From contig NZ_JACJQN010000010.1 in NCBI RefSeq assembly GCF_014696675.1, forward strand, positions 124,001-188,000: DNA of 64,000 bases. Reading direction: 5' to 3'. Within the stretch, counting starts at the first letter, position 1, and every line of letters starts with the position of its first letter. The stretch is from Phormidium tenue FACHB-1052 (GTDB lineage: Bacteria > Cyanobacteriota > Cyanobacteriia > Phormidesmidales > Phormidesmidaceae). Made by a program: the position numbers and the translations under genes. Shown piece after piece: positions 8,398-45,270 of the stretch. Under the pieces are notes generated by a model that was not told the origin of the DNA, searched no databases, and saw only the letters and a program-made list of their open reading frames with translations.

Positions 8398-8471
8398 CGG
8401 GATGTAGCGCAGCTTGGTAGCGCACTTCGTTCGGGACGAAGGGGCCGTGGGTTCGAATCCCGCCATCCCGA
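8398..8471 (+). tRNA. tRNA-Pro (anticodon CGG)
   Basis: The acceptor stem CGGGATG (8398-8404) pairs with CATCCCG (8464-8470), with discriminator A. The anticodon arm CTTCG-TTCGGGA-CGAAG puts CGG at 8432-8434. The T arm has the standard GTTCGAATC. It reads proline codon CCG. The CCA end is not encoded, as is usual in cyanobacteria. It is the left border of a run of accessory genes, and tRNA 3' ends are common integration sites, but I saw no second copy of its 3' end downstream. Confidence 0.95.
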
Positions 8472-8493
8472 TTCTTTCGTTAAAGCGAGTCTT

Positions 8494-8787
8494 ATGGACT
8501 ACGCGTCGTCGGGTACAGAAACAATCACGCTCGAAGTCTCGCAGGATATGCTGGCTGCTCTCAAAATGGGGGCAACTGACTTGGGGGAGCGGATTCGATT
8601 GCTGGCTGCAATTTCATTTTTTCAAGAGAAGCAGCTCTCTTTGGGCAAAGCCGCTGAGCTGGCGGGTTTAAATCGCCTGACGTTTATGGATCTTTTGACT
8701 CAACGGGGCATTGTGGTTTTTGACTACGATGAGTCTGCGCTTGCAACCGATCTGGCTGGCATTGCTGAATTGGTAGACCGTGACTGA
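8494..8787 (+). CDS. UPF0175 family protein, probable antitoxin
   Basis: This 97-aa protein matches UPF0175. An N-terminal strand carries [10 protein letters not shown], then helices precede the diagnostic [20 protein letters not shown]. That stretch is a helix-turn-helix-like unit usually written [18 protein letters not shown]. [11 protein letters not shown] tail follows. UPF0175 genes are usually paired with a DUF3368 PIN-like protein, as here, with the stop 8 bases inside the next gene. It probably neutralises that toxin and may repress the operon. The frame starts just after tRNA-Pro. Confidence 0.85.
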
Positions 8788-9268
8788 CATTATCTGCAAC
8801 GCCACGCCCCTGATTGCGTTTGCCAGAATTGGGCAGCTCTCGCTCATGCAAAATGTGGTTGAGCAGCTAATTATTCCAAATGCTGTCGCTGAGGAAGTGA
8901 TGGATTATAAAGGCTCGGGTGCTGGGCAGATTAACCTAGCCCAAGAATCTTGGATTCGAGTTGAAAAGCTGCAATCTGAGGAGCAAATGCGGCTGCTATT
9001 ACCCACGCTAGACAGGGGTGAAGCTGAAGTAATTGCCTTAGCGATAGAACGACGGACAACGCTAGTGCTGATGGATGAATTGACTGGTCGCAAGGTCGCT
9101 GAGTCGTTGCAGCTTAGGGTAATAGGCTCGGTAGGTCTATTGATTCAGGCGAAACAGCAGGGGCAGATTGTCGCTGTTAAACCGTTGCTAGAATCTATGC
9201 ACGAGGCTGGCATATATTTCAGTCGGCGTTTTATTGCGGCTGTACTTGAGTATGTCAATGAAATGTAA
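8780..9268 (+). CDS. DUF3368 PIN-like protein, probable toxin
   Basis: This 162-aa protein has the DUF3368 pattern. The N-terminal strand IICNATPLIAFARIGQL ends in the SPLI/TPLI motif, VAEEVMD follows, then LDRGEAEVIALA and LVLMDELTGRKVAE, and a late GSVGLLIQAKQQG. The acidic residues of GEAE and MDE fit a PIN-type RNase centre, although the first PIN aspartate is Asn here (CNATPL), as is common in DUF3368. It overlaps the UPF0175 gene by 8 bases, so the two are translationally coupled. The pair is a likely toxin-antitoxin module. RNase activity is inferred from family, not shown. Confidence 0.85.
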   Translation: MTDIICNATPLIAFARIGQLSLMQNVVEQLIIPNAVAEEVMDYKGSGAGQINLAQESWIRVEKLQSEEQMRLLLPTLDRGEAEVIALAIERRTTLVLMDELTGRKVAESLQLRVIGSVGLLIQAKQQGQIVAVKPLLESMHEAGIYFSRRFIAAVLEYVNEM

Positions 9269-10381: not shown

Positions 10382-10666
10382 TTAATTGAGCTGCCGATCG
10401 CGCCTCAGCAGACTAAACACCTCGCCTTGCTCTGGGGTAATTAAAATCCCCGATCGCGGTATTGCAATCAACTGGCTCCAGGTCATTTGGTCGGCGTAGC
10501 TCAGCACATGCAGCTGGTTGATGGTGGCTCGCACCCCCTCGGGTGAGCCAATCACCAGATGGCGCAATCGCTCGCGCCCCGGCTGGGCTTCAGGATTTGC
10601 CAGCAGCAGCGGATTGGTCGCCTCCCGGTTTTGGGCAGACGACACCAAATATGGCAAACACAACAT
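10382..10666 (-). CDS. small cyanobacterial hypothetical protein
   Basis: This 94-aa soluble protein has the core segment LRHLVIGSPEGVRATINQLHVLSY and a C-terminal PxxGEVFSLLRR. I recall proteins with GSPEGV...INQLH as a conserved short family in cyanobacteria with no known function. A good ribosome site (TAAGGA, 8 bases before ATG) supports the start. It follows another short minus-strand frame by 17 bases and may be co-transcribed with it. Confidence 0.65.
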   Translation of the reverse strand: MLCLPYLVSSAQNREATNPLLLANPEAQPGRERLRHLVIGSPEGVRATINQLHVLSYADQMTWSQLIAIPRSGILITPEQGEVFSLLRRDRQLN

Positions 10667-10683
10667 AATTCAGGGATTCCTTA

Positions 10684-10872
10684 CTAACGATGGGTAGGAA
10701 TCCCAAAAACTTGGCCGCCCCAGACATGTTGCAGTTCAGGACGGCCAGGTAAAATCACCTTAGCCTCCGAGACAGCGACTCCTGTCGACGGGGTTAGCCG
10801 CTGGTTGGAGGGCCTAATCTCCTTCCAGTGGCGCTTGACCAAATTTTTGGGACGTTCAGACTGCACGCACAC
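10684..10872 (-). CDS. possible small protein, unknown
   Basis: A 62-codon frame on the minus strand begins with GTG and ends 17 bases before the next gene. It encodes a basic N-terminal half (VKRHWKEIRP) and ends LPGRPELQHVWGGQVFGIPTHR. I do not recognise it. The close spacing to the downstream gene and the protein-like tail are the only support; it may instead be leader sequence. Confidence 0.3.
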   Translation of the reverse strand: MCVQSERPKNLVKRHWKEIRPSNQRLTPSTGVAVSEAKVILPGRPELQHVWGGQVFGIPTHR

Positions 10873-10992
10873 AGCCTTAGCAGAGTAATTTAATCCAATG
10901 GCGCACCGGACGCAAGTAAGAATTGTTACCGTCTTCTAGAAACCTGATTTCTAGACTCATACTCTTGCTTCCGCTACTGGTAGGGGTTATCC

Positions 10993-11490
10993 ACAGCGCC
11001 ACACCCTTCCTTAGACCCTGTAAACCCTTCCTCTGCCCCCACGAAACCTTTGTTTTGCCCGCTGAAAAGTTGGTTTGACTGCTCGGAGGCTGCTTCAGCA
11101 GGCCAAACCCATTCCTTCGCTCACTCGAAAGGTTTCTCCACCCGCGCAGATCATTCCTTCGATCTCGCAGAGGCTTCCTCCAGCGCCACAGATCATTCCT
11201 CTAGGCCTGCGAACCTTTCCTCCAGACCTGCGAATGATTTCTCCATCAATGCAAATCTTCGTTTCTATAGAGCAGAATCTTGTATTTGGGTCGCAAGCAA
11301 TGCTGCCACCAATCCAAAACAACCAGATCCCTCAACAAACTCAATGAGCAGCGCCTCACTGAATGATGCCTCTGCAAAGTCCATTTCTCCGCCCTGCTCG
11401 ATTCACCCTTTCTTCATCAAAATCCATTCTTTCTATTTGCAATCTTGCTAGTTCTCCGCAGTTCGAGCCGTTTCTACCGGGCAATCTACC
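10993..11490. repeat. degenerate 21-bp tandem repeat array, about 23 units
   Basis: The stretch can be cut into consecutive 21-mers that share the pattern N4-GCGAA-N-C-N-TTTCCTCC. Clear examples are GCCTGCGAACCTTTCCTCC at 11205, ACCTGCGAATGATTTCTCC at 11226, CCGCGCAGATCATTCCTTC at 11142 and TCTCGCAGAGGCTTCCTCC at 11163. Because 21 is a multiple of three, several frames stay open. They encode heptad-like repeats on both strands (for example SSRPANL-SSRPAND on plus, GMICAGG-type units on minus). No frame spans the whole array and no ribosome site is convincing, so I list it as a repeat. It ends about 150 bases before the 123-aa protein gene at 11650. Confidence 0.75.
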
Positions 11491-11649
11491 CTTAGGCGAG
11501 ACACACAGACGCCAACCCCTGCCGTCGTCTCGGTTTACCCTTTGCTGCAACTCAATCCGCTTCTCCAGGTCATCGCCCCAGACCTGCGGCGGCTTTGCAC
11601 GCAACCCAAATTAACCTACTTATCCACCCCTATTCAGGGCGTATCTATC

Positions 11650-12021
11650 ATGAACACCGTTGACTTTTCCCGTCGCATTCCGGCCAAAACCATTGAAGCC
11701 GATATTAATTCCTTCCACAGCATGAACTTCATCAAAACCTATATCCCAGTTCGCAGTGAGGCTACCCCCGAAGCGCTTAAAGCGGGTTACGAAACCATGC
11801 GGGCCAAGCAGCAACAAGAAACCGAACTCTTGGCCGCCATCAAAGCCGCCTCCGATGCAGCCCGCATGGCCGAAGTCGAATTTCACGACATGGTGATGGC
11901 GATGAAAGAAACCGTGCGCGGCCAGTATGGTTCCAACAGTGACGAAGCCGCTGCCGTCGGCTACAAAAAGAAGTCAGAGTATAAGCGTCCCCGCCGCACC
12001 CCCAAGGCCAACGCGTCCTAA
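11650..12021 (+). CDS. conserved hypothetical helical protein (KKKSEYKRP tail)
   Basis: This 123-aa protein starts MNTVDFSRRIPAKTIEADINSF and has a long helical, coiled-coil-prone middle (about 45-95: MRAKQQQETELLAAIKAASDA...). It ends in a very basic tail, KKKSEYKRPRRTPKANAS. I recall similar proteins, with the same Asp-Phe-Ser start and KKKSEYKRP tail, in Bacteroidetes and cyanobacteria, with no known function. The ATG at 11650 is chosen because homologues start MNT[V/I]DFS; the open frame itself begins at 11542. The basic tail suggests nucleic acid binding, which is inference. A terminator follows at 12045, and a 21-bp repeat array precedes it. Confidence 0.72.
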   Translation: MNTVDFSRRIPAKTIEADINSFHSMNFIKTYIPVRSEATPEALKAGYETMRAKQQQETELLAAIKAASDAARMAEVEFHDMVMAMKETVRGQYGSNSDEAAAVGYKKKSEYKRPRRTPKANAS

Positions 12022-12044
12022 GCCATTCTCAAAACCCAATTCTC

Positions 12045-12076
12045 AAGGCTCGTGAGCATAGCTTACGGGCTTTTTT
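12045..12076 (+). terminator. rho-independent terminator
   Basis: AAGGCTCGTGAGC pairs with GCTTACGGGCTTT (wobbles included) over a 3-nt loop, followed by TTTTTT. It ends the 123-aa protein gene 23 bases upstream. Confidence 0.8.
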
Positions 12077-12906: not shown

Positions 12907-13821
12907 CTATTTAGGATTTTCTTCCGCAGGCAATGCATCAATGGATTGCAAGATATCGCGTGTAATTTCCTCTCTTTTATAGAGGTCGTCCAATCGGTTT
13001 GGCGTATCGATATTGAGAGCAAAGAACACAGGGCCTGTTGGCCACTCGACCCACCCTACCCACCACCCCCAGCGCCCTTCCCAGCCAGTTTTAGCCCGTA
13101 GAATCCAATCCCGCTCTGCTTCAACGATCATAATATCCTTGACTAATCGTTGGTGCTCAACCCTGAAAGGGAGTTCGTTGTGATACAGCTTCTGTAGAAA
13201 ATAAATTTGCTCTTGTGCTGAGATTGCTAACGCTCCATCAATCCAGTAAGCACCTTCGCTAGTGCTTGGGTCTGCGTTTCCGTAATCAATTTGCGTTAGA
13301 TACTCTCTTGCTTTCGCTTCTCCGATTTCGTCAGCAAACATTTCGTAAACCCAAACGGCTGAGTTTCGCATAGCTGAGCGCAACGTTTGATCCTGATTGT
13401 GTGGAGCGAAATCCCTCTCCACTCCATCCCACTCAAAAACTTGAAATTCATCGCGAACGACACCTGCATCGAGCGCAAAGAGAGAATGCGGAATCTTAAA
13501 CGTTGATGCTGGGGAATAAGCTCTGTCAGCCCGTTCCTGGTCGTAGACCCACAACTGCTGAGCATCTCCGCGCTGATCTAATACCACGATAGTTCCTTGA
13601 GCCTCAGCGCCGTCGAAGAAACTGGCCCAATCCGGGCGCTCTTGCCTTTCTACACTGCCCAAAGACCTATTGTCTACGGTGGTCGAATTACTTATCTTCG
13701 GTCGCTGCGCAATCTGCGGAGTATGTAGTCTATTACTTAGCTCTGCTGAGATAGGTGAAGTAAGCGATATCCCTGCACTACTTATGACCAAAGAAACAAG
13801 GAAAAGGAAACGATGATTCAT
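12907..13821 (-). CDS. class D (OXA-type) beta-lactamase
   Basis: Class D serine beta-lactamases hydrolyse beta-lactam antibiotics in the periplasm. The 304-aa protein starts with a signal peptide (MNHRFLFLVSLVISSAG..., likely cut near PISA-E, residue 26). A variable linker follows, then the catalytic motifs in order. These are STFK (106-109, nucleophile Ser106 and carbamylated Lys109), SAV (154-156), YGN (180-182), the omega-loop-like WIDGALAIS (193-201) and KTG (244-246). All key residues are present, so it should be active. It is a divergent, chromosomal-looking gene with no mobile element or cassette site adjacent. Expression and spectrum cannot be told. Confidence 0.95.
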   Translation of the reverse strand: MNHRFLFLVSLVISSAGISLTSPISAELSNRLHTPQIAQRPKISNSTTVDNRSLGSVERQERPDWASFFDGAEAQGTIVVLDQRGDAQQLWVYDQERADRAYSPASTFKIPHSLFALDAGVVRDEFQVFEWDGVERDFAPHNQDQTLRSAMRNSAVWVYEMFADEIGEAKAREYLTQIDYGNADPSTSEGAYWIDGALAISAQEQIYFLQKLYHNELPFRVEHQRLVKDIMIVEAERDWILRAKTGWEGRWGWWVGWVEWPTGPVFFALNIDTPNRLDDLYKREEITRDILQSIDALPAEENPK

Positions 13822-35473: not shown

Positions 35474-36298
35474 TTAGGGAAGAGTTAGAATTTCTACCCC
35501 TTCCTCAGTCACAGCAACGGTGTGTTCAAACTGAGCTGAAAGTTTCTTGTCTTTTGTAATCACAGTCCAACGATCCGCTAAAAACTTAAGTGTACTCGTG
35601 CCTTCGTTTAGCATTGGCTCAACCGTAAAAACCATTCCCGGACGCAGCTTCAATCCACTGCCTCGTTCGCCAAAATGAGGAATTTGAAGCTCTGTATGCA
35701 TCTGCCTGCCGATACCATGCCCAACCATATCTCGAACAACTGAGAACCCTTTCGCCTCGGCATATTCTTGAATTGCAGCTCCAATATCACCAATTCTTGC
35801 CCCCGGCTTGATTTCAGCAATTCCTCGCATCATCGATGCTTGAGTGGCTTCAACTAGCTTTCGAGCTGTTGCGGATACATTGCCAACTAGGAATGTTTTA
35901 GACGTGTCGCCATGATAACCGTCTAGGCGTGGCGTTACATCGATGTTGATAATATCTCCGTCTTTAAGGATGTGCTTTGGATTCGGAATTCCGTGACAAA
36001 CTACTTCATTAATGCTGGTGCAAATTGAGCCGGTAAAGGGGGGATGATCGGGAGGCGCATAGCCAAGGGTGGCACTGGTTGCACCATGGGCTTGCATCCA
36101 ACGCGCCGCCTCATCATTTAAAGCTTGCGTACTCACTCCAGGTTGCACCATTGATTCAAGATGGTTGAGGAGATTCGCCGCGAGCCGTCCAGCCCGCCGC
36201 ATCTTGTCTAGTTCTCTACTCGAAAGCAAGACAAGGCCTGGATGACCCTGGGGTTGGCCCAAATCTCCGGCGATCGAGAGCAAATTCTGGCGGTTCAT
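35474..36298 (-). CDS. map: type I methionine aminopeptidase
   Basis: MetAP removes the initiator methionine from new proteins and needs two metal ions. The 274-aa protein has a short N-terminal extension (about 25 residues) before the SSRELDKMRRAGRL core. The metal ligands are in place: Asp in INIDVTP, Asp in HGDTSK, His in VGHGIGR, Glu in FTVEPML and Glu in QFEHTVAV. His in CHGIPN is the substrate-side His. Cyanobacteria often have several map genes; this one sits in an accessory region and is probably a secondary copy. It diverges from an RHH gene, with a strong palindrome between. Confidence 0.94.
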   Translation of the reverse strand: MNRQNLLSIAGDLGQPQGHPGLVLLSSRELDKMRRAGRLAANLLNHLESMVQPGVSTQALNDEAARWMQAHGATSATLGYAPPDHPPFTGSICTSINEVVCHGIPNPKHILKDGDIINIDVTPRLDGYHGDTSKTFLVGNVSATARKLVEATQASMMRGIAEIKPGARIGDIGAAIQEYAEAKGFSVVRDMVGHGIGRQMHTELQIPHFGERGSGLKLRPGMVFTVEPMLNEGTSTLKFLADRWTVITKDKKLSAQFEHTVAVTEEGVEILTLP

Positions 36299-36317
36299 GG
36301 ATAAAGCTTTGATTACT

Positions 36318-36354
36318 CGTGCTATGCCATGCTAGCACAGCATGGCATAGCACG
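36318..36354. promoter_or_regulatory. perfect 16-bp palindrome between map and the RHH gene
   Basis: CGTGCTATGCCATGCT (36318-36333) is exactly reverse-complementary to 36339-36354, with AGCAC between. Shorter TGCTA/TAGCA and GCCATGC units nest inside it. It lies in the 82-bp gap between divergent genes, about 19 bases from the map start and 27 bases from the RHH frame, a good place for an operator bound by the RHH protein. Confidence 0.6.
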
Positions 36355-36380
36355 ACACAGGCTAGGCTATTACTGGTATC

Positions 36381-36599
36381 TTGGAAGCAAGAAAACCAGA
36401 AGTGAAACTCAAAATGGGTGGTAAGACAGACTTGGAGCGAGTGGTTGCTTACGTTTCTCCAGAGTTAAAGCAAGAACTGGAGGAGTGGGCGCAGACAGAT
36501 GAAAGATCTGTCTCTTGGCTGGTTGCAAAATTAATTGATAAGTCTTTGCAAGAACGCCGAAAACAGCGAAGCGCTTCGGAAGTAGTCAATATGCGCTGA
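36381..36599 (+). CDS. ribbon-helix-helix (CopG-like) protein
   Basis: The core DLERVVAYVSPELKQELEEWAQTDERSVSWLVAKLIDKSLQERR has the RHH layout: a strand (RVVAYV), helix A (PELKQELEEWAQ), a turn (ERSVSW) and helix B (SWLVAKLIDKSLQE). Such proteins are repressors or antitoxins. No toxin gene follows. The frame opens with TTG at 36381; ATG 36414 (61 aa) is a good alternative. The strong palindrome just upstream is a candidate for its own operator. Confidence 0.75.
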   Translation: MEARKPEVKLKMGGKTDLERVVAYVSPELKQELEEWAQTDERSVSWLVAKLIDKSLQERRKQRSASEVVNMR

Positions 36600-36747
36600 A
36601 ATTAGAGTTCTTATAGAGTAGGTTGCTCTCGTTGCACTGACATTGACCCAGTTCTCAAGCGGGGCGGGCCTGCTGATTGACAAAAAAAGACCACTCGAGG
36701 GATGACATCCTTCAGCATCTGCCATCGCATAATGAATTAGACGTCTT

Positions 36748-36921
36748 ATGAGCTATCGAGCCCCTCTCGGTCGCTATGACGTAGACGCGGTGACCCCGCA
36801 CCCAACGCTTGCCCTAGAGGAAGCAGTGCTCGCTCACTTCCAAATTAGCAAAGCCCCGTTCACCCATCTGATGTCGAGTAACGGTTTAGTTGTCGTCGCT
36901 AACACTTTAGTGTCGTCTTAA
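36748..36921 (+). CDS. possible small ORF running into a transposon-like end
   Basis: An ATG frame encodes MSYRAPLGRYDVDAVTPHPT and about 22 more protein-like residues (...LALEEAVLAHFQISKAPFTHL) before entering the repeat element that starts at 36872, where it ends after 57 codons. On the far side of the element a frame reads PSFGDTNARSISREQALFCV and stops at 37197. It may be a small gene split by the element. No family was recognised. Confidence 0.3.
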   Translation: MSYRAPLGRYDVDAVTPHPTLALEEAVLAHFQISKAPFTHLMSSNGLVVVANTLVSS

Positions 36922-37091
36922 CCAAATTGGTGTCGCCTTAACGCATTAGTGCCATCAAGGTTCATTTAGCGTTTGAGCGCACTTTAGGTGTCATCTTAGC
37001 AATCACTAAGACCCTTTCTTGTCAATGGCTTAGCGATTTTTGGCTAGATGACAAAAAGTTGTTAAGACGACAAATAATCTGTTGCCCGACA
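36872..37091. mobile_element. 220-bp element with TnsB/TniA-type terminal repeats
   Basis: The left end starts TGTCGAGTAAC and then repeats TGTCGTCGCTAAC, TGTCGTCTTAAC, TGTCGCCTTAAC (36891, 36911, 36931), spaced about 20 bases. The right end, read on the minus strand from 37091, starts TGTCGGGCAAC and repeats TGTCGTCTTAAC (37072) and TGTCATCTAGCC (37053). The two ends are inverted and align over about 30 bases. Multiple ~20-bp-spaced TGTCGTC-type sites inside a 5'-TGT end are the hallmark of TnsB/TniA transposases (Tn7, Tn5053, type V-K CAST). No transposase is encoded, and I see no clear 5-bp target duplication. Confidence 0.7.
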
Positions 37092-37202
37092 CCCCTTCCT
37101 TTGGCGATACCAATGCTAGGAGCATCAGTCGAGAACAGGCATTGTTTTGCGTCCAGCAGAAAGCTGCAACCAGCCGGATGGAGCTTAAGAATTGACGTTG
37201 GC

Positions 37203-37772
37203 CTAAACGGCTTGGGCTTGGGCCACATGTTTGCCCTTACAAAACTCTTCCACAATTTTGCTGTTGAAGGCGGGCAAATCGTGGGGGTTGCGGCTGGTGA
37301 TTAACCCCTGATCGACGACCACCTCTTGATCGACCCAGGTGGCCCCGGCATTGCTAAGGTCGGTTTTTAGAGAAGGCCAGGAGGTGACGGTGCGCCCCTT
37401 GACCACATCGGCTTCAATCAAGGTCCAAGGCCCGTGACAAATTGCGGCTACGGGTTTGCTATCGGCAAAAAATGCCTGAATAAACTGAATGGCTTGAGCG
37501 TTGGTTCTGAGCTGGTCAGGATTCAACACTCCACCGGGCAGCACTAGCGCGTCGTAATCGGCGGCGCGAGCTTGGTCAAGGGTGCGATCGACCGGCACTG
37601 TGTCACCTTTGTCATGGTGATTCCAGCCTTGAATGGAGTCACCCTGGGGGGCGATCACATGCACTTGGGCACCGGCTTTTTCTAACGCTTGTTTGGGCTC
37701 GGTCAACTCAACCTGCTCAAATCCATCGGTGGCTAAGATCGCCACTTTGCGGTTTGTGAGTACTGGGGCCAT
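37203..37772 (-). CDS. DJ-1/PfpI family protein
   Basis: The 189-aa protein is a class I glutamine-amidotransferase-like DJ-1/PfpI member: KVAILATDGFEQVELTEPKQALEKAGA (Glu of the triad region). It has LVLPGGVLNPDQLR and the nucleophile elbow VAAICHGPWTLIEA (Cys with His), as in PfpI/YhbO/YraA. Members are described as deglycases or stress-protection enzymes, and the catalytic claim is disputed in the field. GAGAATT before ATG supports the start. It appears monocistronic. Confidence 0.92.
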   Translation of the reverse strand: MAPVLTNRKVAILATDGFEQVELTEPKQALEKAGAQVHVIAPQGDSIQGWNHHDKGDTVPVDRTLDQARAADYDALVLPGGVLNPDQLRTNAQAIQFIQAFFADSKPVAAICHGPWTLIEADVVKGRTVTSWPSLKTDLSNAGATWVDQEVVVDQGLITSRNPHDLPAFNSKIVEEFCKGKHVAQAQAV

Positions 37773-38444
37773 GCTAATTCTCCTGAGGTTTGAGGTTTAA
37801 ATTGTCGGTCCTAGATTTCCATGATCTCGGCTAGATTCTGCCCCTGAAATTAATTCAGCACATCCTTAGGCACACCGGGCGTAGCTATCTTCACCGCTTG
37901 ATTGAAGTCAAGAGGCTGGGCTAGTGGTTGCGGATGTGTAGGCTTACAATGCCTTCTAACCATTGAGGTCGCAGACTAAAGCTGGCAGATTTGTTGCCGA
38001 GAACTGTTTTCAGCTTAGGTAACTGAGTTGAGGGCAGCGTCTAGCCATAGGTGGAGTTAGTCAATTGGCCGCACCGGTTCAGCCATATTCATACATGGAG
38101 GGGCGGTACGGCGATCGCCGCTGCTAAAACTTCCCTAGCTAAAGCACAGAGCAGGTGACTAGGTCTACTACGGCCTTTCGAATTGAACACCGTGACAGAA
38201 GATTGAGAGCCCCACAAGACCCTCTTGAATACTTACACTGAAGCTAGCCAGCGCTATTTGAACCATAGCTTTCTTTGCAAAGCAGCAAATAGCTATGTCT
38301 TTCAGTCGATGGGGCTAGCTACATTGCTCAGAAATCGGCTGAAACAATTTGTTAGATAGTGCGATCGCACCCTGGCCCCAAGCAGCCTTGACGAGATTTC
38401 CCCAGCGATCTTCAGCAGAGCCTAGTTGAGATGGAGCTAATTCC
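37773..38444. other. intergenic region, no gene seen
   Basis: About 670 bases between two divergent genes, with no frame I can support on either strand. It includes a HIP1 core at about 38360 and must hold the promoters of the PfpI gene and NDH-2. A short imperfect inverted repeat (AGCTATTTG...CAAATAGCT, near 38260-38300) is present. Confidence 0.4.
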
Positions 38445-39869
38445 ATGAAAAATACCGCCATTGAGACTCAGCCTCACAAAGTTGTGATCGTTGGAGGAGG
38501 GTTTGGCGGTCTCTATGCCGCTAAGGCATTGGGAAAAACTAAGCAGGTTGAAGTCACTCTGATTGACAAACGAAATTTTCATCTGTTTCAACCGCTGCTC
38601 TATCAAGTAGCTACGGGGAAATTATCACCTGGGGATATTTCGTCGCCCCTGCGAGCGATCTTGAGTGCTCACCGCCACGTCAGGGTGTTGATGGATGCCG
38701 TCATTGATATTGACCCTCAGCAGCAGCAAGTGACGCTAACCCACGCAACTCTGCCCTACGACACGCTGGTGGTGGCCACGGGTGTTAGCCACCACTACTT
38801 CGGTCATGACCAGTGGGCCGAAGCCGCACCGGGGCTGAAGACCCTTGAGGACGCCCTAGAAATGCGGAAACGAATTTTTGGGGCGTTTGAAGCCGCTGAA
38901 AAAGAGTCAGATCCGGAGCGGCGGCGGGCCTGGCTAACGTTTGTGGTGGTGGGCGGCGGGCCAACCGGTGTGGAACTGGCTGGGGCCCTGGCCGAACTGG
39001 CTTTTCACACGCTTAAGGACGAATTTCACCATATTGACACCACCGAAACCCGTATTCTGTTGCTGGAAGGGCTCGATCGCGTGCTGCCCCCTTACCCCGC
39101 TGATCTGTCGGCCAAAGCCGCCGCATCACTGAAGGAGTTGGGTGTAACAGTGCGTACCGAAGCTCTAGTGACCGACATCGACGACGATGTGGTGACGGTG
39201 CGCCAGGGCGAGCAGACGGAGCAAGTGCGGGCCAAAACCATTCTCTGGGCTGCCGGAGTGAGGGCTTCGGCGCTGGGCAAAGTGCTGGCTGCCCGAGCCG
39301 GGGCTCAGCTCGATCGCTCGGGGCGGGTCATGGTGAACCCTGATCTAAGTCTGCCTGAGCAGCCCAACATTTTTGTGGTGGGCGATCTAGCCCACTTTGC
39401 CCACCAGAACAATGGCGCAGACTCCCCGGAGGGAAACCAGCCCCTGCCGGGTGTTGCGCCCGTGGCGATGCAGCAGGGAGCCTACATCGCCAAGCTAATT
39501 CAGCGGCGGCTGCAAGGGAAAGCGGTGCCTCCCTTCCACTATGACGATGTAGGCAGTCTGGCGGTGATTGGCCATCACGCGGCGGTGGTGAATATGGGAC
39601 GGTTCAAGCTGTGGGGCTTCCCCGCCTGGCTGATCTGGATTTTTGTACACATCTACTATTTGATCGAGTTTGACAACAAGCTGGTGGTGATGATCCAGTG
39701 GTTGTGGAGCTATTTCACTCGCAAAGGCGGTTCACGGCTGATTACTTGGGAAGAGAGCCGCCTGGATGAGCCGATAGTTGTCGATCAGGAGCCTCAGCGG
39801 GTGGAGCGGAATGAAGCTCCAGAACGCACCTCAGGGAATCTAAAAGCGCCAGTCATTGCAGAATCGTAG
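38445..39869 (+). CDS. type II NADH dehydrogenase (NDH-2)
   Basis: NDH-2 is a membrane-attached flavoprotein that passes electrons from NAD(P)H to quinones without pumping protons. The 474-aa protein has the FAD motif [17 protein letters not shown] (about 13-29) and [25 protein letters not shown]. The NADH motif is [19 protein letters not shown], followed by FVVGDLAHF. The C-terminal amphipathic part [27 protein letters not shown] is the usual membrane anchor. A Pro/Glu-rich tail of about 40 residues follows. The xylulokinase gene starts 16 bases downstream, so the two may be co-transcribed, which would couple polyol-derived NADH to the quinone pool. Confidence 0.93.
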
Positions 39870-39885
39870 GGATGGGGAGGCTGAG

Positions 39886-41352
39886 TTGGCGGACGTAGTC
39901 ATTGGTTTAGACTTGGGAACCGGCGGGGTGCGGGCGATCGCCGTCAATCTGCAAGGCCAAGTGGTGGCCCAAACGACCCAGAGTTATCCCCTGCTGACGC
40001 CCCACCCCGGCTGGACGGAGCAGCAGCCCGCCGATTGGGTCGAGGCTAGTCTCACGGCCCTGAGCGAAGTAGCGGCGCAGATTGAGGGGCAAACGGTAGT
40101 TGCTCTCGGTCTATCAGGCCAAATGCACGGCATGGTGCCGCTGGACGAAGACGGTCAGGTAATTCGCCCAGCCATTCTCTGGAATGACCAGCGCACAGGG
40201 GCGGCGGTGGCGGAAATTGAAGCGGCAGTGCCCCGGTCAGACCTGATTCAGCGCACCGGCAATCCGGCAATTACGGGGTTTCAGCTACCCAAATTGGTGT
40301 GGCTGCGGCAGGAGGAACCCCAGACCTACGCCCAGGTGCGGCAAATTCTGCTGCCCAAAGACTACCTCGGCTACGTGCTGACTGGTGAAGCGGTGACGGA
40401 ACCCTCGGATGCCTCTGGCATTGGCTGCTTAAACCTGGCCAGTCGGCAGTGGGATCAGGATATCCTCGCCGCTCTCGATATCAGCCCCGACCTGTTTCCC
40501 ACGGTGGTCGAATCGACCGCCATTGCTGGACGGCTGAAGCCGGAACTGGCTGAGCGGACAGGACTCCCAGCAAGACTGCCCGTGGTGGCGGGTGGCGGTG
40601 ACAACGCCGCAGCGGCGATCGGTCTCGGCATTTCCGATCGCAACCTGAAGCGAGGCAGCCTCAGCATTGGCACGTCGGGAGTAATTTTTGCCCCCTGCGA
40701 TGTCCCCACCCCCGACCCCCAGGGGCGCGTGCACCTGTTTTGCCATGCCGATGGTGGCTACCACCTGCTGGGGGTAACCCTGGCGGCGGGGGGTGCCCTG
40801 CGCTGGTACCGCGACACCTTTGCCCCCAATATCGCCTTTGCCGATCTGATGGCCCTGGCCGAAAAATCTGAACCGGGGGCGCGGGGCGTGCTGTTTTTGC
40901 CTCACTTGGCGGGCGAGCGCAGCCCCTACCTCGACCCCGATACGCGGGGAGCCTGGGTGAATTTGTCGCTGGCTCACACCCAGGGCGACCTGATTCGGGC
41001 AGTGCTGGAAGGGGTGGCCTTTAGCCTGCGGGCGGCCTTGGAAGTGATTCAGGGAACTTCTCCGGTGAATCAGCTACTGGCAACGGGGGGCGGGGTGCGA
41101 TCGCCCCTCTGGTTCCACCTACTAGCGGATGTGCTCCACACCGAACTGGTCGCTCCCAAAGCCGAAGAAGGAGCGGCCTACGGGGCGGCGATTTTGGCGA
41201 TGGTAGGGGTAGGTGTCTATCCGTCGCTGGAGGAAGCATTTGAGACTTTGCCAGAGGCGATCGAGGCGGTGCAACCCCAAAAGCACGCAGCCTATGAGGC
41301 GGCATTTGAACGATACACCCCACTCTACGAGTCGCTAAAGGTGGTGAGGTAG
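39886..41352 (+). CDS. xylB: xylulokinase
   Basis: Xylulokinase phosphorylates D-xylulose to xylulose 5-phosphate. The ~488-aa FGGY kinase starts [19 protein letters not shown] and has [14 protein letters not shown] (xylulose site) and ILWNDQRT. It also has the FGGY signature regions [21 protein letters not shown] and [14 protein letters not shown] place the start at TTG 39886 because GGGGAGG lies 6 bases before it; the open frame reaches back to 39856 and overlaps NDH-2. It belongs to the polyol locus and would serve arabitol or xylitol breakdown, like MtlY of Pseudomonas fluorescens. Confidence 0.93.
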
Positions 41353-41469
41353 GGATGATGACAATGCTGTAATTCAAGCTTGGGGTAAACCGTAATTTTG
41401 GTTTGGCCCAATAGAAGCTGTCGATATAGTAATGCCCCTACAGTTATGCCCAGACAATATGTATCTAGA

Positions 41470-42225
41470 ATGAATGGCCTTAGCCTCAAGCGTCGCGATG
41501 CCCTAGGCTTCATCGGCGGCACTCTGATGGTTTCGCTGTTTGGCTGCTTGCGCAAGCCCTCGGCCTCGGCTGAACCGAGTAGTACCGTAGCCCAAACCTC
41601 GACCGGCGCAGCGACGGCAGGGCAGCCTGCTTGCACCGTGCGACCCCAGCAGACCGAAGGCCCCTATTTTGTTGATGAAGCGCTAAATCGCTCCGATATT
41701 CGCTCTGACCCAACGACTGGCTCGGTGAAACCAGGCGTTCCCCTAAAGCTGCAATTTCGGGTATCTCAAGTAGGTGCTGATGCCTGTGTGCCGCTGGCAG
41801 GAGCAATGGTAGATGTCTGGCACTGCGATGCCACCGGAGCCTATTCAGACGTAAACGATCGCCAAGCCAACACCTTAGGCCAAAAGTTTCTGCGCGGTGC
41901 TCAGGTCACCGATGCTGACGGCACGGTCGAGTTCACCACCATTTATCCGGGTTGGTATCCTGGCCGGACTGCACATATTCACTTCAAAATTCGCGGTAAT
42001 ACTGCCGAAAATCAGGGCTATGAATTTACCTCACAGCTTTATTTTGACGATGTTCTGAGCGATCGCGTCTACGCCCAGCCCCCTTACAGCGATAGGGGCG
42101 ATCGCACCACCCGTAACCAAAACGACGGTATCTTCCGCAGCGGCGGCGATCAGTTAATTCTGCCCATTACCGAGGCTAGAGAGGGCTACACCGGGCGTTT
42201 TGAGATTGGGCTGGAGTTGGCCTGA
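41470..42225 (+). CDS. Tat-exported intradiol ring-cleavage dioxygenase-like protein
   Basis: Intradiol dioxygenases use Fe(III) to cut catechol rings between the hydroxyls. The core has PACTVRPQQTEGPYFVD, VDVWHCDATGAYSDV (Tyr ligand) and TIYPGWYPGRTAHIHFKI (Tyr, His, His ligands), so the iron site is intact. The N-terminus SLKRRDALGFIGGTLMVSLFGC combines a twin-arginine motif with a lipobox, suggesting an exported lipoprotein. I prefer ATG 41470 because it puts the RR motif at residues 7-8; frames extend to 41398. Similar exported dioxygenases are common but biochemically obscure. Its link to the polyol locus is unclear. Confidence 0.88.
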   Translation: MNGLSLKRRDALGFIGGTLMVSLFGCLRKPSASAEPSSTVAQTSTGAATAGQPACTVRPQQTEGPYFVDEALNRSDIRSDPTTGSVKPGVPLKLQFRVSQVGADACVPLAGAMVDVWHCDATGAYSDVNDRQANTLGQKFLRGAQVTDADGTVEFTTIYPGWYPGRTAHIHFKIRGNTAENQGYEFTSQLYFDDVLSDRVYAQPPYSDRGDRTTRNQNDGIFRSGGDQLILPITEAREGYTGRFEIGLELA

Positions 42226-42247
42226 TGGGCGCTCCTCTATATTTAGC

Positions 42248-42332
42248 CCGGTTTGGTTAGGGCAAACGCCGTTTGCCCCTACAGGGTTGCCTTATTAATG
42301 GGGATGTAGGGGCGAATGGCATTCGCCCTCGG
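42248..42332. repeat. GGGCAAACGCCGTTTGCCC-family palindromic repeat
   Basis: Two short hairpins occur, GGGCAAACGCCGTTTGCCC and GGGCGAATGGCATTCGCCC, each flanked by CCCTACA/TGTAGGGG. They lie between convergent genes and may act as a two-way terminator. Other members of this repeat family lie at 51656-51775. Confidence 0.65.
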
Positions 42333-42335
42333 GGT

Positions 42336-43310
42336 TTAGGCAGCGACCTGGTGGTGCAGAAAAGCATCGACCTCCTGGGGGGTGGGCTGGGCGGCGATCG
42401 CACCCGGTTTCAACGTCGTCAGCGCCCCCACCGCGCTGGCATAACGCAGAATTGCTTTAATCTCAGCCGGGTCTTGCCAAACATCCCAGCCCCGCTGGCA
42501 AAGCTGGTGCAGAATTCCGGCTAGGAAGGCGTCTCCTGCCCCGGTTGTATCTTTGCTGCTGACATCAAAGGCCGGGAGTGAGACGCTGTGCTGTTTCGTA
42601 GCGCAGGTGCTGCCGTTGCCGCCATCGGTGAGCAATACAGCCTGAGCGCGGGGCAGTTGCCGACAAATATCTGCGGCGGAATCGGTCGCGAACAGCCACA
42701 GAGCCTCTTCGCGAGCGAGTTTGAGCAAGTCAGCGACACTTAAAAAGTCTCGAATTTTGGCGGGAGCAAGGTCTACTTCTGGCCAAAACACTGGCCGCCA
42801 GTTCAGATCAATCACAATCTTGGCCCCGGCCTGCTGGGCCTTGTCTCGCGCCCGTGCCATGGCGCTGGCAGTAGTGGGGTAGGCCAGGCCCAGCGTCCCC
42901 ATCACCAGATACTTCACCCCGGCAAAATCGACGGCATCTATCCACTCGGGGGTGAGGTGGGCGTCGGCAAAGGCGGTGGGGTCGGGGGCGCTGAAGCCAA
43001 TGAAATTGCGATCGCCCGTTTCATCCCGCTGCACTAGCACCGTGCGGGTGGGCACATTGACCACGCGCTGAATCTGGCACGCCACTCCCTGCTCTTGCAA
43101 AACCTGAATTAGCCAGTCGCCCAGGTCATCTTGGCCTAGGGCGCTGATCAGTCGGGTGGGGGTGCCGAGTTTTGCGATCGCAGCAGCCACATTCGCAGGT
43201 GCTCCACCAGGATAATCGGTGCCGTCAGCAGAGCCACTTTCAGGCGTTTCACCGACCTCAAACAGGCGATCGACTAAGCATTCTCCTAAACAAATCACGG
43301 GCTCGGTCAT
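42336..43310 (-). CDS. PfkB family sugar kinase, probable fructokinase
   Basis: The 324-aa ribokinase-fold enzyme starts PVICLGECLVDRLFEVG and has YPGGAPANVAAAIAKLG (substrate lid) and GTLGLAYPTTA. Its C-terminal signature SSKDTTGAGDAFLAGIL carries the catalytic Asp in GAGD. In a locus with a mannitol-2-dehydrogenase-type enzyme, fructose is the expected substrate (compare MtlZ of Pseudomonas), but this is inferred from context. It ends next to the convergent dioxygenase and lies 63 bases downstream of the SorC-type regulator gene on the same strand, so it may be co-transcribed with it. Confidence 0.9.
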   Translation of the reverse strand: MTEPVICLGECLVDRLFEVGETPESGSADGTDYPGGAPANVAAAIAKLGTPTRLISALGQDDLGDWLIQVLQEQGVACQIQRVVNVPTRTVLVQRDETGDRNFIGFSAPDPTAFADAHLTPEWIDAVDFAGVKYLVMGTLGLAYPTTASAMARARDKAQQAGAKIVIDLNWRPVFWPEVDLAPAKIRDFLSVADLLKLAREEALWLFATDSAADICRQLPRAQAVLLTDGGNGSTCATKQHSVSLPAFDVSSKDTTGAGDAFLAGILHQLCQRGWDVWQDPAEIKAILRYASAVGALTTLKPGAIAAQPTPQEVDAFLHHQVAA

Positions 43311-43373
43311 GGGTTTCTCCTAAATCGCTCTAAATCCATTCATCCGAGCTAGCCGATCTCGGGTCGATAATAG

Positions 43374-44363
43374 TTATCCCTTAATCAAAATCGCTGTGGC
43401 GGCGGCTTCGTCAGTAATTAGCCCGCTGATCAGCCGACCCTGTAGGGCCGCGAGAATGGCTTCGGCTTTGCGGGTGCCGCCAGCAACGCCGATGATCAGG
43501 CGCTGAGCTGGTTGCTCTAGGGGCACGCCAGCAACACGGCTATTGGTGCCCGCTTGCAGCAATTTCCCCTGAGAATTGAACGCCCAGCCAGCGATTTCAC
43601 CCACGGCCCCCAACTCAATCAGCTCGGTCAGTTCGGCGTCGTTGATAAAGCCATCCTCGTGCAGGGGCGCGTTCCAAGCGATGTGACTAACGCCGACGAA
43701 GGTGACCTTAGCCTGCTCCGCCAGAGCTTTAACCGCTAGAAACGATCGCTGGGTCTGCAACAAGTCGCGCTCCTCCACGCTGGTGGCCACCGCTGGCGTG
43801 GGCACCGGGTAGGTTTGCGACCCCACCCGATCAGACAAATGCATGACCACCTCATGGCGACCGGCTAGCCCGTAGTGCGACATGTTGCCCACAATCGAAA
43901 CAATCTTGTGCTGAGGCTGATCCATCGACGGAATTTGATCGACCATGGCCCGCAGGGTGCGCCCCGAGCTAAAGGCCAGAATGGAAGGGGTTCTGGCGAC
44001 TAGATAGGTCTCTAGATAAGTCGCCGCGCAGACGCCCAAGCCGTCGTAAAGGTCACCACCGACGGCGGGGTCGGGCACGACTTCACACATCGCTAGATCA
44101 AACCGATCGCGCAGGGCCTCGGCCAGGGCAATGCAGTGGCTGAGGGGATGGTCGAGGCGAAATTTGATCAGCTTTTCGCTGACGGCTAGGGCCACCAAGC
44201 GCTGGGCCGCCTGCCGCGACACATTCAGCTTGGCGGCAATTTCTTCTTGGGTGTTACCAGCAATGTAGTATAGCCACGCGGCATGAGCCGCTAGGTCGAG
44301 CTTGCGATGGCCCTGTTGGGCCAGTCTTCGAACATCGCGCTTTTCTGCATAAATATCTCCCAT
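43374..44363 (-). CDS. SorC/DeoR-type sugar-binding transcriptional regulator
   Basis: The 329-aa protein has an N-terminal HTH (AAWLYYIAGNTQEEIAAKLNVSRQAAQRLVALAVSEKLIKFRLDHP, about 27-72). A SorC sugar-phosphate-sensing domain follows, with GVCAATYLETYL, ILAFSSGRTLRAMV, FVGVSHIAW and RLIIGVAGGTRKAEAILAAL. This is the SmoC/DalR type that controls sorbitol, mannitol and arabitol loci. It sits between the kinase gene and the SDR dehydrogenase gene. Likely effectors are phosphorylated products of polyol breakdown; candidate operators are noted at 45367. Confidence 0.92.
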   Translation of the reverse strand: MGDIYAEKRDVRRLAQQGHRKLDLAAHAAWLYYIAGNTQEEIAAKLNVSRQAAQRLVALAVSEKLIKFRLDHPLSHCIALAEALRDRFDLAMCEVVPDPAVGGDLYDGLGVCAATYLETYLVARTPSILAFSSGRTLRAMVDQIPSMDQPQHKIVSIVGNMSHYGLAGRHEVVMHLSDRVGSQTYPVPTPAVATSVEERDLLQTQRSFLAVKALAEQAKVTFVGVSHIAWNAPLHEDGFINDAELTELIELGAVGEIAGWAFNSQGKLLQAGTNSRVAGVPLEQPAQRLIIGVAGGTRKAEAILAALQGRLISGLITDEAAATAILIKG

Positions 44364-44469
44364 CGCTCACCTCAAAACCCACCACTACCCAAAGAAAGAT
44401 TTTATTCGATTAAAGATCTATCTAAAGAGTGATTGAGCAATTCGTCCATCAGAGAATATTTGCTCAATT

Positions 44470-45270
44470 CTATTGTCCCCCTGTGACGTCCAAATTGAAC
44501 CCGGTGATGTAGCTAGCCTCGTCGCTCATCAAGAAAGCGACCCCGTTGGCGACTTCTTCTAACCGGCCCAGGCGGCGCAGCGGCACTGAGTTGAGCATCT
44601 GCTGCTCGACCACCTTGGGGTCGGCGTCAAAATACTGCGACCCCACCCCTGCCTGTAGTTCCGTCTGCCGGGTCCACATCACACCGGGGCCAATCAGCGA
44701 CGGCGATAGAGCGTTGACGCGAATGCCGTAGGGGGCCAGGTCTTTGGCAGCGGTTTGGGTCATGCCAATTACCGCAAACTTGGAGGCGGCGTAGGCCAAC
44801 ATGTTAGGCGGTCCATCCACCCCAGCGTGGCTGGCCATGTTGACGATTGCCCCGCCAGTCTTCCGCAGGTGTTGAGCGGCGGTTTTGAGAATGTGAAACA
44901 CGCCAACTACGTTGATGTCGATCACCGTCTGAAAATCCTGCTCAGGATACTCGTCGGTTTTGGCAAACGCGCCCTGGTAGCCGGCATTGTTAAACACGTA
45001 GTCGAGCTGCCCCACCTGCTCCACGGCGATCGCAAACACGTCGGCCACCTCCTGAGCGTCGGTGACATCGCAGCGAATGGTGTACACAGGATTGCCGTAG
45101 TCTTTCAATCCCTGGGCAACCTCGGCCAATCTCATTTCGTTAATGTCCAGCAACACAATTGTTGCCCCGTTGGCAGCAAATCGGTGGGCAGTGGCTTTGC
45201 CGATTTCCCCTGCCCCGCCGGTAATCAGAATGGTTTTGCCCTGGAAATTGTAGGTTGCCGTCGCGCTCAT
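44470..45270 (-). CDS. SDR polyol dehydrogenase (sorbitol/galactitol dehydrogenase-like)
   Basis: The 266-aa classical SDR has ILITGGAGEIGKATA (about 12-26), the Asp-Ile loop LLDIN that favours NAD(H), NNAGYQG, catalytic Ser in VNMASHAG, and YAASK. The end LDVTGGQ is typical. ATG 45270 has GAGGTCAG upstream, inside a longer frame. By position in a polyol locus it is probably the counterpart of SmoS, oxidising sorbitol or a related polyol. It diverges from the transporter operon, sharing a 167-bp control region. Confidence 0.88.
   Translation of the reverse strand: MSATATYNFQGKTILITGGAGEIGKATAHRFAANGATIVLLDINEMRLAEVAQGLKDYGNPVYTIRCDVTDAQEVADVFAIAVEQVGQLDYVFNNAGYQGAFAKTDEYPEQDFQTVIDINVVGVFHILKTAAQHLRKTGGAIVNMASHAGVDGPPNMLAYAASKFAVIGMTQTAAKDLAPYGIRVNALSPSLIGPGVMWTRQTELQAGVGSQYFDADPKVVEQQMLNSVPLRRLGRLEEVANGVAFLMSDEASYITGFNLDVTGGQ

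Follow-up and report, generated by a model that had tools for sequence, protein, structure and literature searches.

We showed that a 220-bp, gene-free stretch in the genome of Phormidium tenue FACHB-1052 (G000) is very probably an internally deleted, non-autonomous type V-K CRISPR-associated transposon (CAST). Its broader identity, a two-ended element of V-K origin, we regard as close to certain. The element lies in the window, i.e. the whole 64-kb stretch of DNA analysed here (contig C2, 124001–188000), and by the alignments it consists of a left end joined to a right end through one internal deletion (Table 1). The V-K reading is supported by eight exact left borders in other genomes, by right-end matches in G007 and G019, and by Cas12k and TnsB in relatives carrying the same end family. 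A sequence-only reading of the window had proposed a miniature, transposase-less element with TnsB-type ends; this was confirmed and can be narrowed to a type V-K CAST derivative whose end family also occurs on full-length elements in related genomes.

Anatomy and borders of the element

Table 1. Features of the window around the 220-bp element and its candidate attachment site (window coordinates).
Feature	Position	Strand	Remarks	Method
Whole miniature element	36872..37091	.	220 bp, single copy in genome	
V-K left end (tRNA/Cas12k side)	36872..36998	+	~125 bp, six TnsB-like sites	BLAST, alignment
V-K right end	36999..37091	-	93 bp, three TnsB-like sites	BLAST, alignment
IS4-family transposase gene remnant, left flank	36768..36871	+	ends exactly at element	
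Sequence unshared with relatives, right of element	37092..37116	.	25 bp	
Conserved chromosomal block, DJ-1/PfpI gene onward	37117..44798	.	86% to G007:C13	
tRNA-Pro(CGG)	8398..8471	+	V-K CAST attachment site in several genus members	

The left-end sites read TGTCGAGTAAC at 36872, TGTCGTCGCTAAC at 36891, TGTCGTCTTAAC at 36911 and TGTCGCCTTAAC at 36931, followed by two sites absent from the list in the sequence-only reading, a degenerate TGCCATC at 36950 and TGTCATCTTAG at 36989. On the minus strand, the right-end sites were, reading inward, TGTCGGGCAAC from 37091, TGTCGTCTTAAC from 37072 and TGTCATCTAGCC from 37053. All words that had been quoted from both ends were present in their places, and the two ends are indeed inverted and alignable, with an inverted repeat of 37 nt and 73% complementarity. 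Clusters of at least three TGTC-type sites at 17–25 bp spacing occurred in the window only within this element, on the plus strand from 36872 and on the minus strand from 37091, and in none of 200 first-order Markov sequences of window length. The TGTCG termini face outward, so that this is one element with an internal deletion; the alternative suggestion of two fused ends from neighbouring elements is thereby excluded.

Alignment with four left ends showed that the six-site left end follows V-K left ends to about 36998 and stops short of the anchor-spacer region of the relatives, this region being picked by eye. The right-end alignment took in three relatives, with BLAST identities of 84% over 93 bp (L022, G007), 81% over 95 bp (L029, G019) and 86% over 42 bp (L074, G008). 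As the left end matches tRNA-side ends and the right end matches these three loci, distinct left and right ends are present in one element. The genes cas12k, tniQ, tnsC and tnsB and a CRISPR/anchor spacer are all absent from the 220 bp, which leave no room for a gene. A search of the G000 genome at E values up to 0.001 gave no second copy, so the element is single copy.

Within the right end, 37000–37037 is a hairpin-capable stretch (AATCACTAAG...CTTAGCGATTTTT), similar in G007 and G019 and bearing an apparent compensatory change. This likeness is what a structured RNA or a regulatory repeat, rather than a transposon, would offer in its favour. Such a reading is scarcely credible, however, since Rfam gave no match in 36000–38000, the fold was no better than that of shuffled sequences (z-score -1.07, equalled by 32 of 200 shuffles), and the ends are found, sharply bordered, at different locations in the genomes.

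The borders were searched with 661 bp around the element against 57 genomes, and 19 of them gave matches. Matches to the element begin exactly at 36872 in eight places (G016, G007, G002, G009, G020, G026, G010 and G029) and 2–3 bases before it in G008 and G017, while G012 matches the element only from inside. Right-end matches covering 36999–37091 were obtained from G007 and G019. On the other side of the left border, left-flank matches end exactly at 36871 in three places (G015, and G020 twice) and six bases before it in four (G024, G009, G006 and G022). By these alignments the element borders appear to be independently real. When the element alone was used as query, matches came from 16 of the 63 genomes searched within the order, G000 included, and the whole 220 bp was found in G000 only; the left ends of G007, G002, G020, G026, G008, G016 and others start at the same base as the window's. 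The opposite outcome named by the sequence-only reading, in which similar ends are missing and the 220 bp is conserved in place, was not borne out.

Cas12k-bearing relatives and the end signature

The closest left ends in the genus, those of G020, G026, G007 and G002, run into cas12k. In G020 (L027, L068) the left end is followed by Cas12k, long cargo and then TniQ, TnsC and TnsB; the right end of this element was not found. In G026 (L035, L069) an 18.6-kb element runs from the left end and Cas12k through TniQ, TnsC and TnsB to the right end, the end just outside tnsB resembling the window's in general type. By eye, this tnsB-side end abuts an apparent end of another V-K subfamily. The Cas12k proteins of L027 and L035 scored 855.7 and 863.9 bits with NCBIfam NF038191, the best PDB match of L027 was Cas12k (7n3o, E 1.1e-203), and the TnsB of L068 matched ShCAST TnsB (8rdu, E 4.5e-194). 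The Pfam matches were Mu-transpos_C for TnsB, TniB for TnsC and the TniQ domain for TniQ, with none for Cas12k. The G007 element (L022, 4921–8735) is 3.8 kb long with two window-like ends and a cas12k in two pieces, and is a decay intermediate.

The left end lies 10–12 bp from tRNA-Val(CAC) in G007, G002 and G020, and 2–12 bp from tRNA-Pro(CGG) in G008, G016, G010, G017 and G026 (2–12 bp over the eight loci measured for either tRNA). A degenerate end pattern with up to three mismatches, applied to 26 genus genomes, gave counts near those of a reversed-pattern control among the matches listed and was excluded from the counts.

The exact pattern TGTCRARTAACNNNTTANNTGTCRTC was used as an end signature and searched in a collection of 84,980 species. 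It was detected in 59 stretches with 61 ends in total, all under titles that we take to be cyanobacterial, and in 0 stretches of viral contigs. A tRNA is located 4–39 bp upstream and points at the end in 36 of the 61 cases; Cas12k is found inside 19 ends, and TnsB 310–824 bp inside eight, none of these eight having a tRNA. This placement of tRNA, Cas12k and TnsB identifies the signature as a mark of V-K ends, both left and right. Ends of another TnsB/TniA-type transposon (Tn5053 or other Tn7-like) without Cas12k would share the TGT with repeated sites, which is common to TnsB/TniA elements in general, and for 16 of the 61 ends the stretches scanned contain no called tRNA and no CAST genes. This explanation is nevertheless largely refuted and very improbable, in view of the 19 ends with Cas12k, the 36 with a tRNA pointing at them, and the nearest left ends of the genus, which lead to cas12k. 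The tRNA and Cas12k placement also agrees with the V-K architecture given in the available text of PMC9938897, namely a tRNA, a left end downstream and an adjoining anchor spacer.

Insertion site, flanks and resident transposition genes

The left flank is 94% identical to L032 over 104 bp, 81% to L033 and 74.5% to L034, the ORF of the last belonging to the IS4 family (NF033591, 282.9 bits), and the IS4 sequence is uninterrupted in all three loci. The left-flank module is syntenic to L032 (G015), where the IS4 sequence adjoins a TraI/TraA-like gene with NCBIfam scores under the curated cut-offs. Synteny with G007, G010, G017 and G019 begins at 37114–37117 and extends over at least 4.2 kb, and the element is located at the near edge of this conserved block. 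It joins a plasmid-like module on the left to conserved chromosome on the right. The comparison with an empty site, suggested by the sequence-only reading, was thus fruitful on one side only: the left flank is uninterrupted in relatives, and in none of those examined is the left flank joined to the right flank. Distant BLAST against plasmids gave no match for the element or for two miniatures.

The IS4 remnant is cut exactly at the left end, which supports transposition at this joint, and the joint was probably made in that way rather than by chance deletion. The 25 bp beside the right joint are unshared and put its exactness in doubt. The five bases outside the element are TCTGA on the left and CCCCT on the right, i.e. 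there is no 5-bp duplication. A search of G000 for the missing half of the IS4 remnant or a second element copy returned only the known place and a 20-bp match (E 0.5).

The tRNA-Pro is the only called tRNA in the window and the 220-bp element is not beside a tRNA; a CAST end beside tRNA-Pro(CGG) is absent in the window and in G019. Relative to the tRNA-Pro side of the contig, the block that starts at 37117 has the opposite orientation in G007, so that a rearrangement near the element separates the two genomes. An inversion with its breakpoint at tRNA-Pro was considered for the G007 synteny and is contradicted by the synteny of G019, G010 and G008 past tRNA-Pro. Window 8474–8860 also lies downstream of tRNA-Pro in G019, 10392–10945 was found in G019 and G010, and 10398–12076 in G008; since this sequence is kept, the G007 break there is its own CAST insertion. 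The G007 block beyond the edge had no match in G000 in a search run without a positive control.

Several minor features were observed in the same region. Left of the conserved block, G007, G010 and G019 carry an apparent 3' part of a tRNA-Ser(CGA) gene (L077, L078 and L203), and ARAGORN called no tRNA in L077 and L078. Window 36659–36777 matches relatives repeatedly, with at least 10 places in G056 (60–178 of the query) and eight in G008 (60–130), and is probably the end of another insertion sequence. An ORF at 12907–13821 resembles, by eye, a class D beta-lactamase-type protein.

The G000 genome encodes a Cas12k on C33 (214154–216106, L082; 736.6 bits), beside tRNA-Ala(CGC), and TnsB/TnsC/TniQ on C17 (5928–9281, L084), the TnsB being 36% identical to that of G020. 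The ends at these resident V-K genes read TGTACGTTCGCAC... and are, by eye, of a type other than the 220-bp element's. The V-K genes on C33 and C17 have similar ends and are perhaps one long CAST split by assembly. The second TnsB-like gene of G000 is part of a Tn7-like element on C12 (L071, 12290–19108) with an 899-aa TnsB-containing protein, a TnsC-like protein and two TniQ proteins, which adjoins a type I restriction-modification-like cluster. The TniQ family search overlooked the C17 TniQ, which was found by tblastn, so absence by family search alone is weak. A full-length V-K copy with the ends of the 220-bp element was not found in G000; the full-length relative foreseen by the sequence-only reading therefore exists in related genomes (G020 and G026, with cas12k, tniQ, tnsC and tnsB) and not in the same genome. 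A resident helper for the element is unlikely. As no matching transposase seems to remain in G000, the element would now be a stranded relic.

Miniatures in other cyanobacteria and origin of the element

Inverted end pairs shorter than 1.6 kb were collected as miniatures among the loci, after removal of four that repeat the window. Gene-free miniatures were found in Calothrix sp. FI2-JRJ7 (249 and 234 bp), Nostoc flagelliforme (237 bp), Brasilonema CT11 (237 bp) and Symplocastrum torsivum (238 bp), and Scytonema tolypothrichoides has a 799-bp gene-free element beside a tRNA. An identical counterpart of the 234-bp copy of FI2-JRJ7 lies at an unrelated site in Calothrix HK-06, so that miniatures of nearly equal size recur in six genomes, G000 counted. 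Nostoc flagelliforme contains two complete copies, at 93%, besides a partial one. When the flanks of five miniature copies were compared (0.8–1.4 kb on each side), no similarity between copies was seen. Two or more copies are thus found for the Calothrix and Nostoc look-alikes and one for the window's element; the comparison points to recent movement of the look-alikes, and stops short of the window's element. The identical Calothrix copies belong to a subfamily other than the window's, and their interior sequence differs. In the same flank comparison the only match was within one Nostoc flagelliforme locus (L160), where a 128-bp repeat, inverted and at 87%, is common to the two sides of the miniature.

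A perfect 5-bp duplication was present in none of the eight copies of 220–249 bp from six genomes, the matching positions being 1, 3, 1, 2, 2, 4, 1 and 0 of 5. It was likewise missing in two CASTs whose ends both lie on a single contig (3 and 1 of 5) and in L022 of G007 (0 of 5). Since other miniatures and CASTs also have no duplication, its lack is no argument against transposition within the family. The available part of PMC11406308 describes replicative transposition in which TnsA and a resolvase are missing, and the lack of duplication fits such a process, although the sample is small and a later rearrangement would give the same picture. An outward 5-mer common to different copies, a possible trace of replicative inversion, was not found.

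Whether the element was already a miniature on arrival is, in our estimate, an even question. It may have arrived as 220 bp, as a mobile miniature (MITE) of a V-K CAST moved in trans by a V-K TnsB then present, and we give this slightly less than even credence. The exact left border within the IS4 remnant and the mobile look-alikes in Calothrix and Nostoc favour it, while the single copy, the missing target duplication and the lack of a matching transposase in G000 tell against it. Alternatively, a full-length V-K CAST may have lost its interior and some flank by ordinary deletion and never moved as a miniature. This decay in place, which we hold to be a serious possibility just short of an even one, is consistent with the partly decayed 3.8-kb relative in G007, with the single copy in G000, and with twelve degenerate Cas12k proteins reported in the available text of PMC9938897. 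It is opposed by the similar-sized miniatures of six genomes, one of them identical at two unrelated sites, which argue that miniatures do move, and by a site that is not a tRNA.

For the preferred explanation, an internally deleted V-K CAST with a transposed left joint, the following mechanism can be proposed. A TnsB of the same family, supplied in trans, could still bind the predicted sites at both ends, which is what the element would need in cis. TnsA-less replicative strand transfer may have brought the left end and the IS4 remnant together. If left without resolution, events of this kind would give cointegrates, inversions or adjacent deletions, and these products would have no matching 5-bp duplication and unrelated DNA on both sides, as at the window's element. 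This explanation is weakened by the lack of a 5-bp duplication and of an adjoining tRNA, which most V-K elements have, and by the lack of a second copy or of the other IS4 half, which an intact cointegrate would leave. It is further weakened by the different subfamily and interior of the identical Calothrix copies, and the single copy puts the own mobility of the window's element in doubt.

The element has in common with type V-K CAST (ShCAST/AnCAST type) its left and right ends, TnsB-like sites spaced about 20 bp, TGTCG termini, and the end family of genus members bearing cas12k and tnsBC-tniQ. It differs in being gene-free, without an anchor spacer and not at a tRNA, with 220 bp against 18.6 kb in G026. 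Like the MITEs of the review PMC10969869, in its accessible part, it is short and gene-free, has two outward inverted ends and is presumed to be mobilised in trans; unlike them, its parent is a multi-gene V-K CAST, its ends are site arrays with left and right dissimilar, and it has no target duplication. That part of the review names Tn7, and not CRISPR or TnsB. The degenerate V-K CASTs in the available text of PMC9938897 are likewise decayed relatives of the same transposon type with left ends retained, but what is described there are degenerate cas12k genes and left ends located next to regulators, and not miniatures with two ends and no genes. In Anabaena sp. 90, 147 MITEs, complete or partial and classed as 'type II', are reported with no parent known in that genome (PMC3542288, accessible part). 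No earlier report of gene-free V-K CAST miniatures was found in the open literature, subscription papers lying outside this scope.

More tentatively, V-K CASTs may spawn a class of cyanobacterial MITEs of about 220–250 bp that are moved in trans, at places other than tRNA sites. Without TnsA or resolvase, and being short for homologous recombination, such MITEs would leave their joints unresolved and duplication-free, fusing unrelated DNA. If so, V-K MITEs would seed rearrangements of chromosomes and plasmids, and would be naturally occurring donors of minimal size for RNA-guided transposition. V-K CASTs are in use as genome-editing tools and their natural behaviour off tRNA sites is poorly known; the miniature shows how small the DNA retained by a natural V-K derivative can be, about 125 + 93 bp. 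If the miniatures are mobile as a class, genomes would record replicative transposition off the attachment site and its targets, its outcomes without TnsA or resolvase, and the use of V-K transposases in trans.

Smaller elements were also observed, of 68 bp (L025, 14723–14790, G016) and 82 bp (L031, 748–829, G012). Both adjoin tRNA-Pro or its 3' sequence, and both of their outward termini look like left ends. Beside tRNA-Pro in L073 (G007), L030 (G017), L036 (G009), L028 (G010) and L127, 20–45 bp of a window-type left end run directly into the end of another V-K subfamily (TGTACGTTCCGG...). The tandem ends beside tRNA-Pro look as if different CASTs had used one site in turn.
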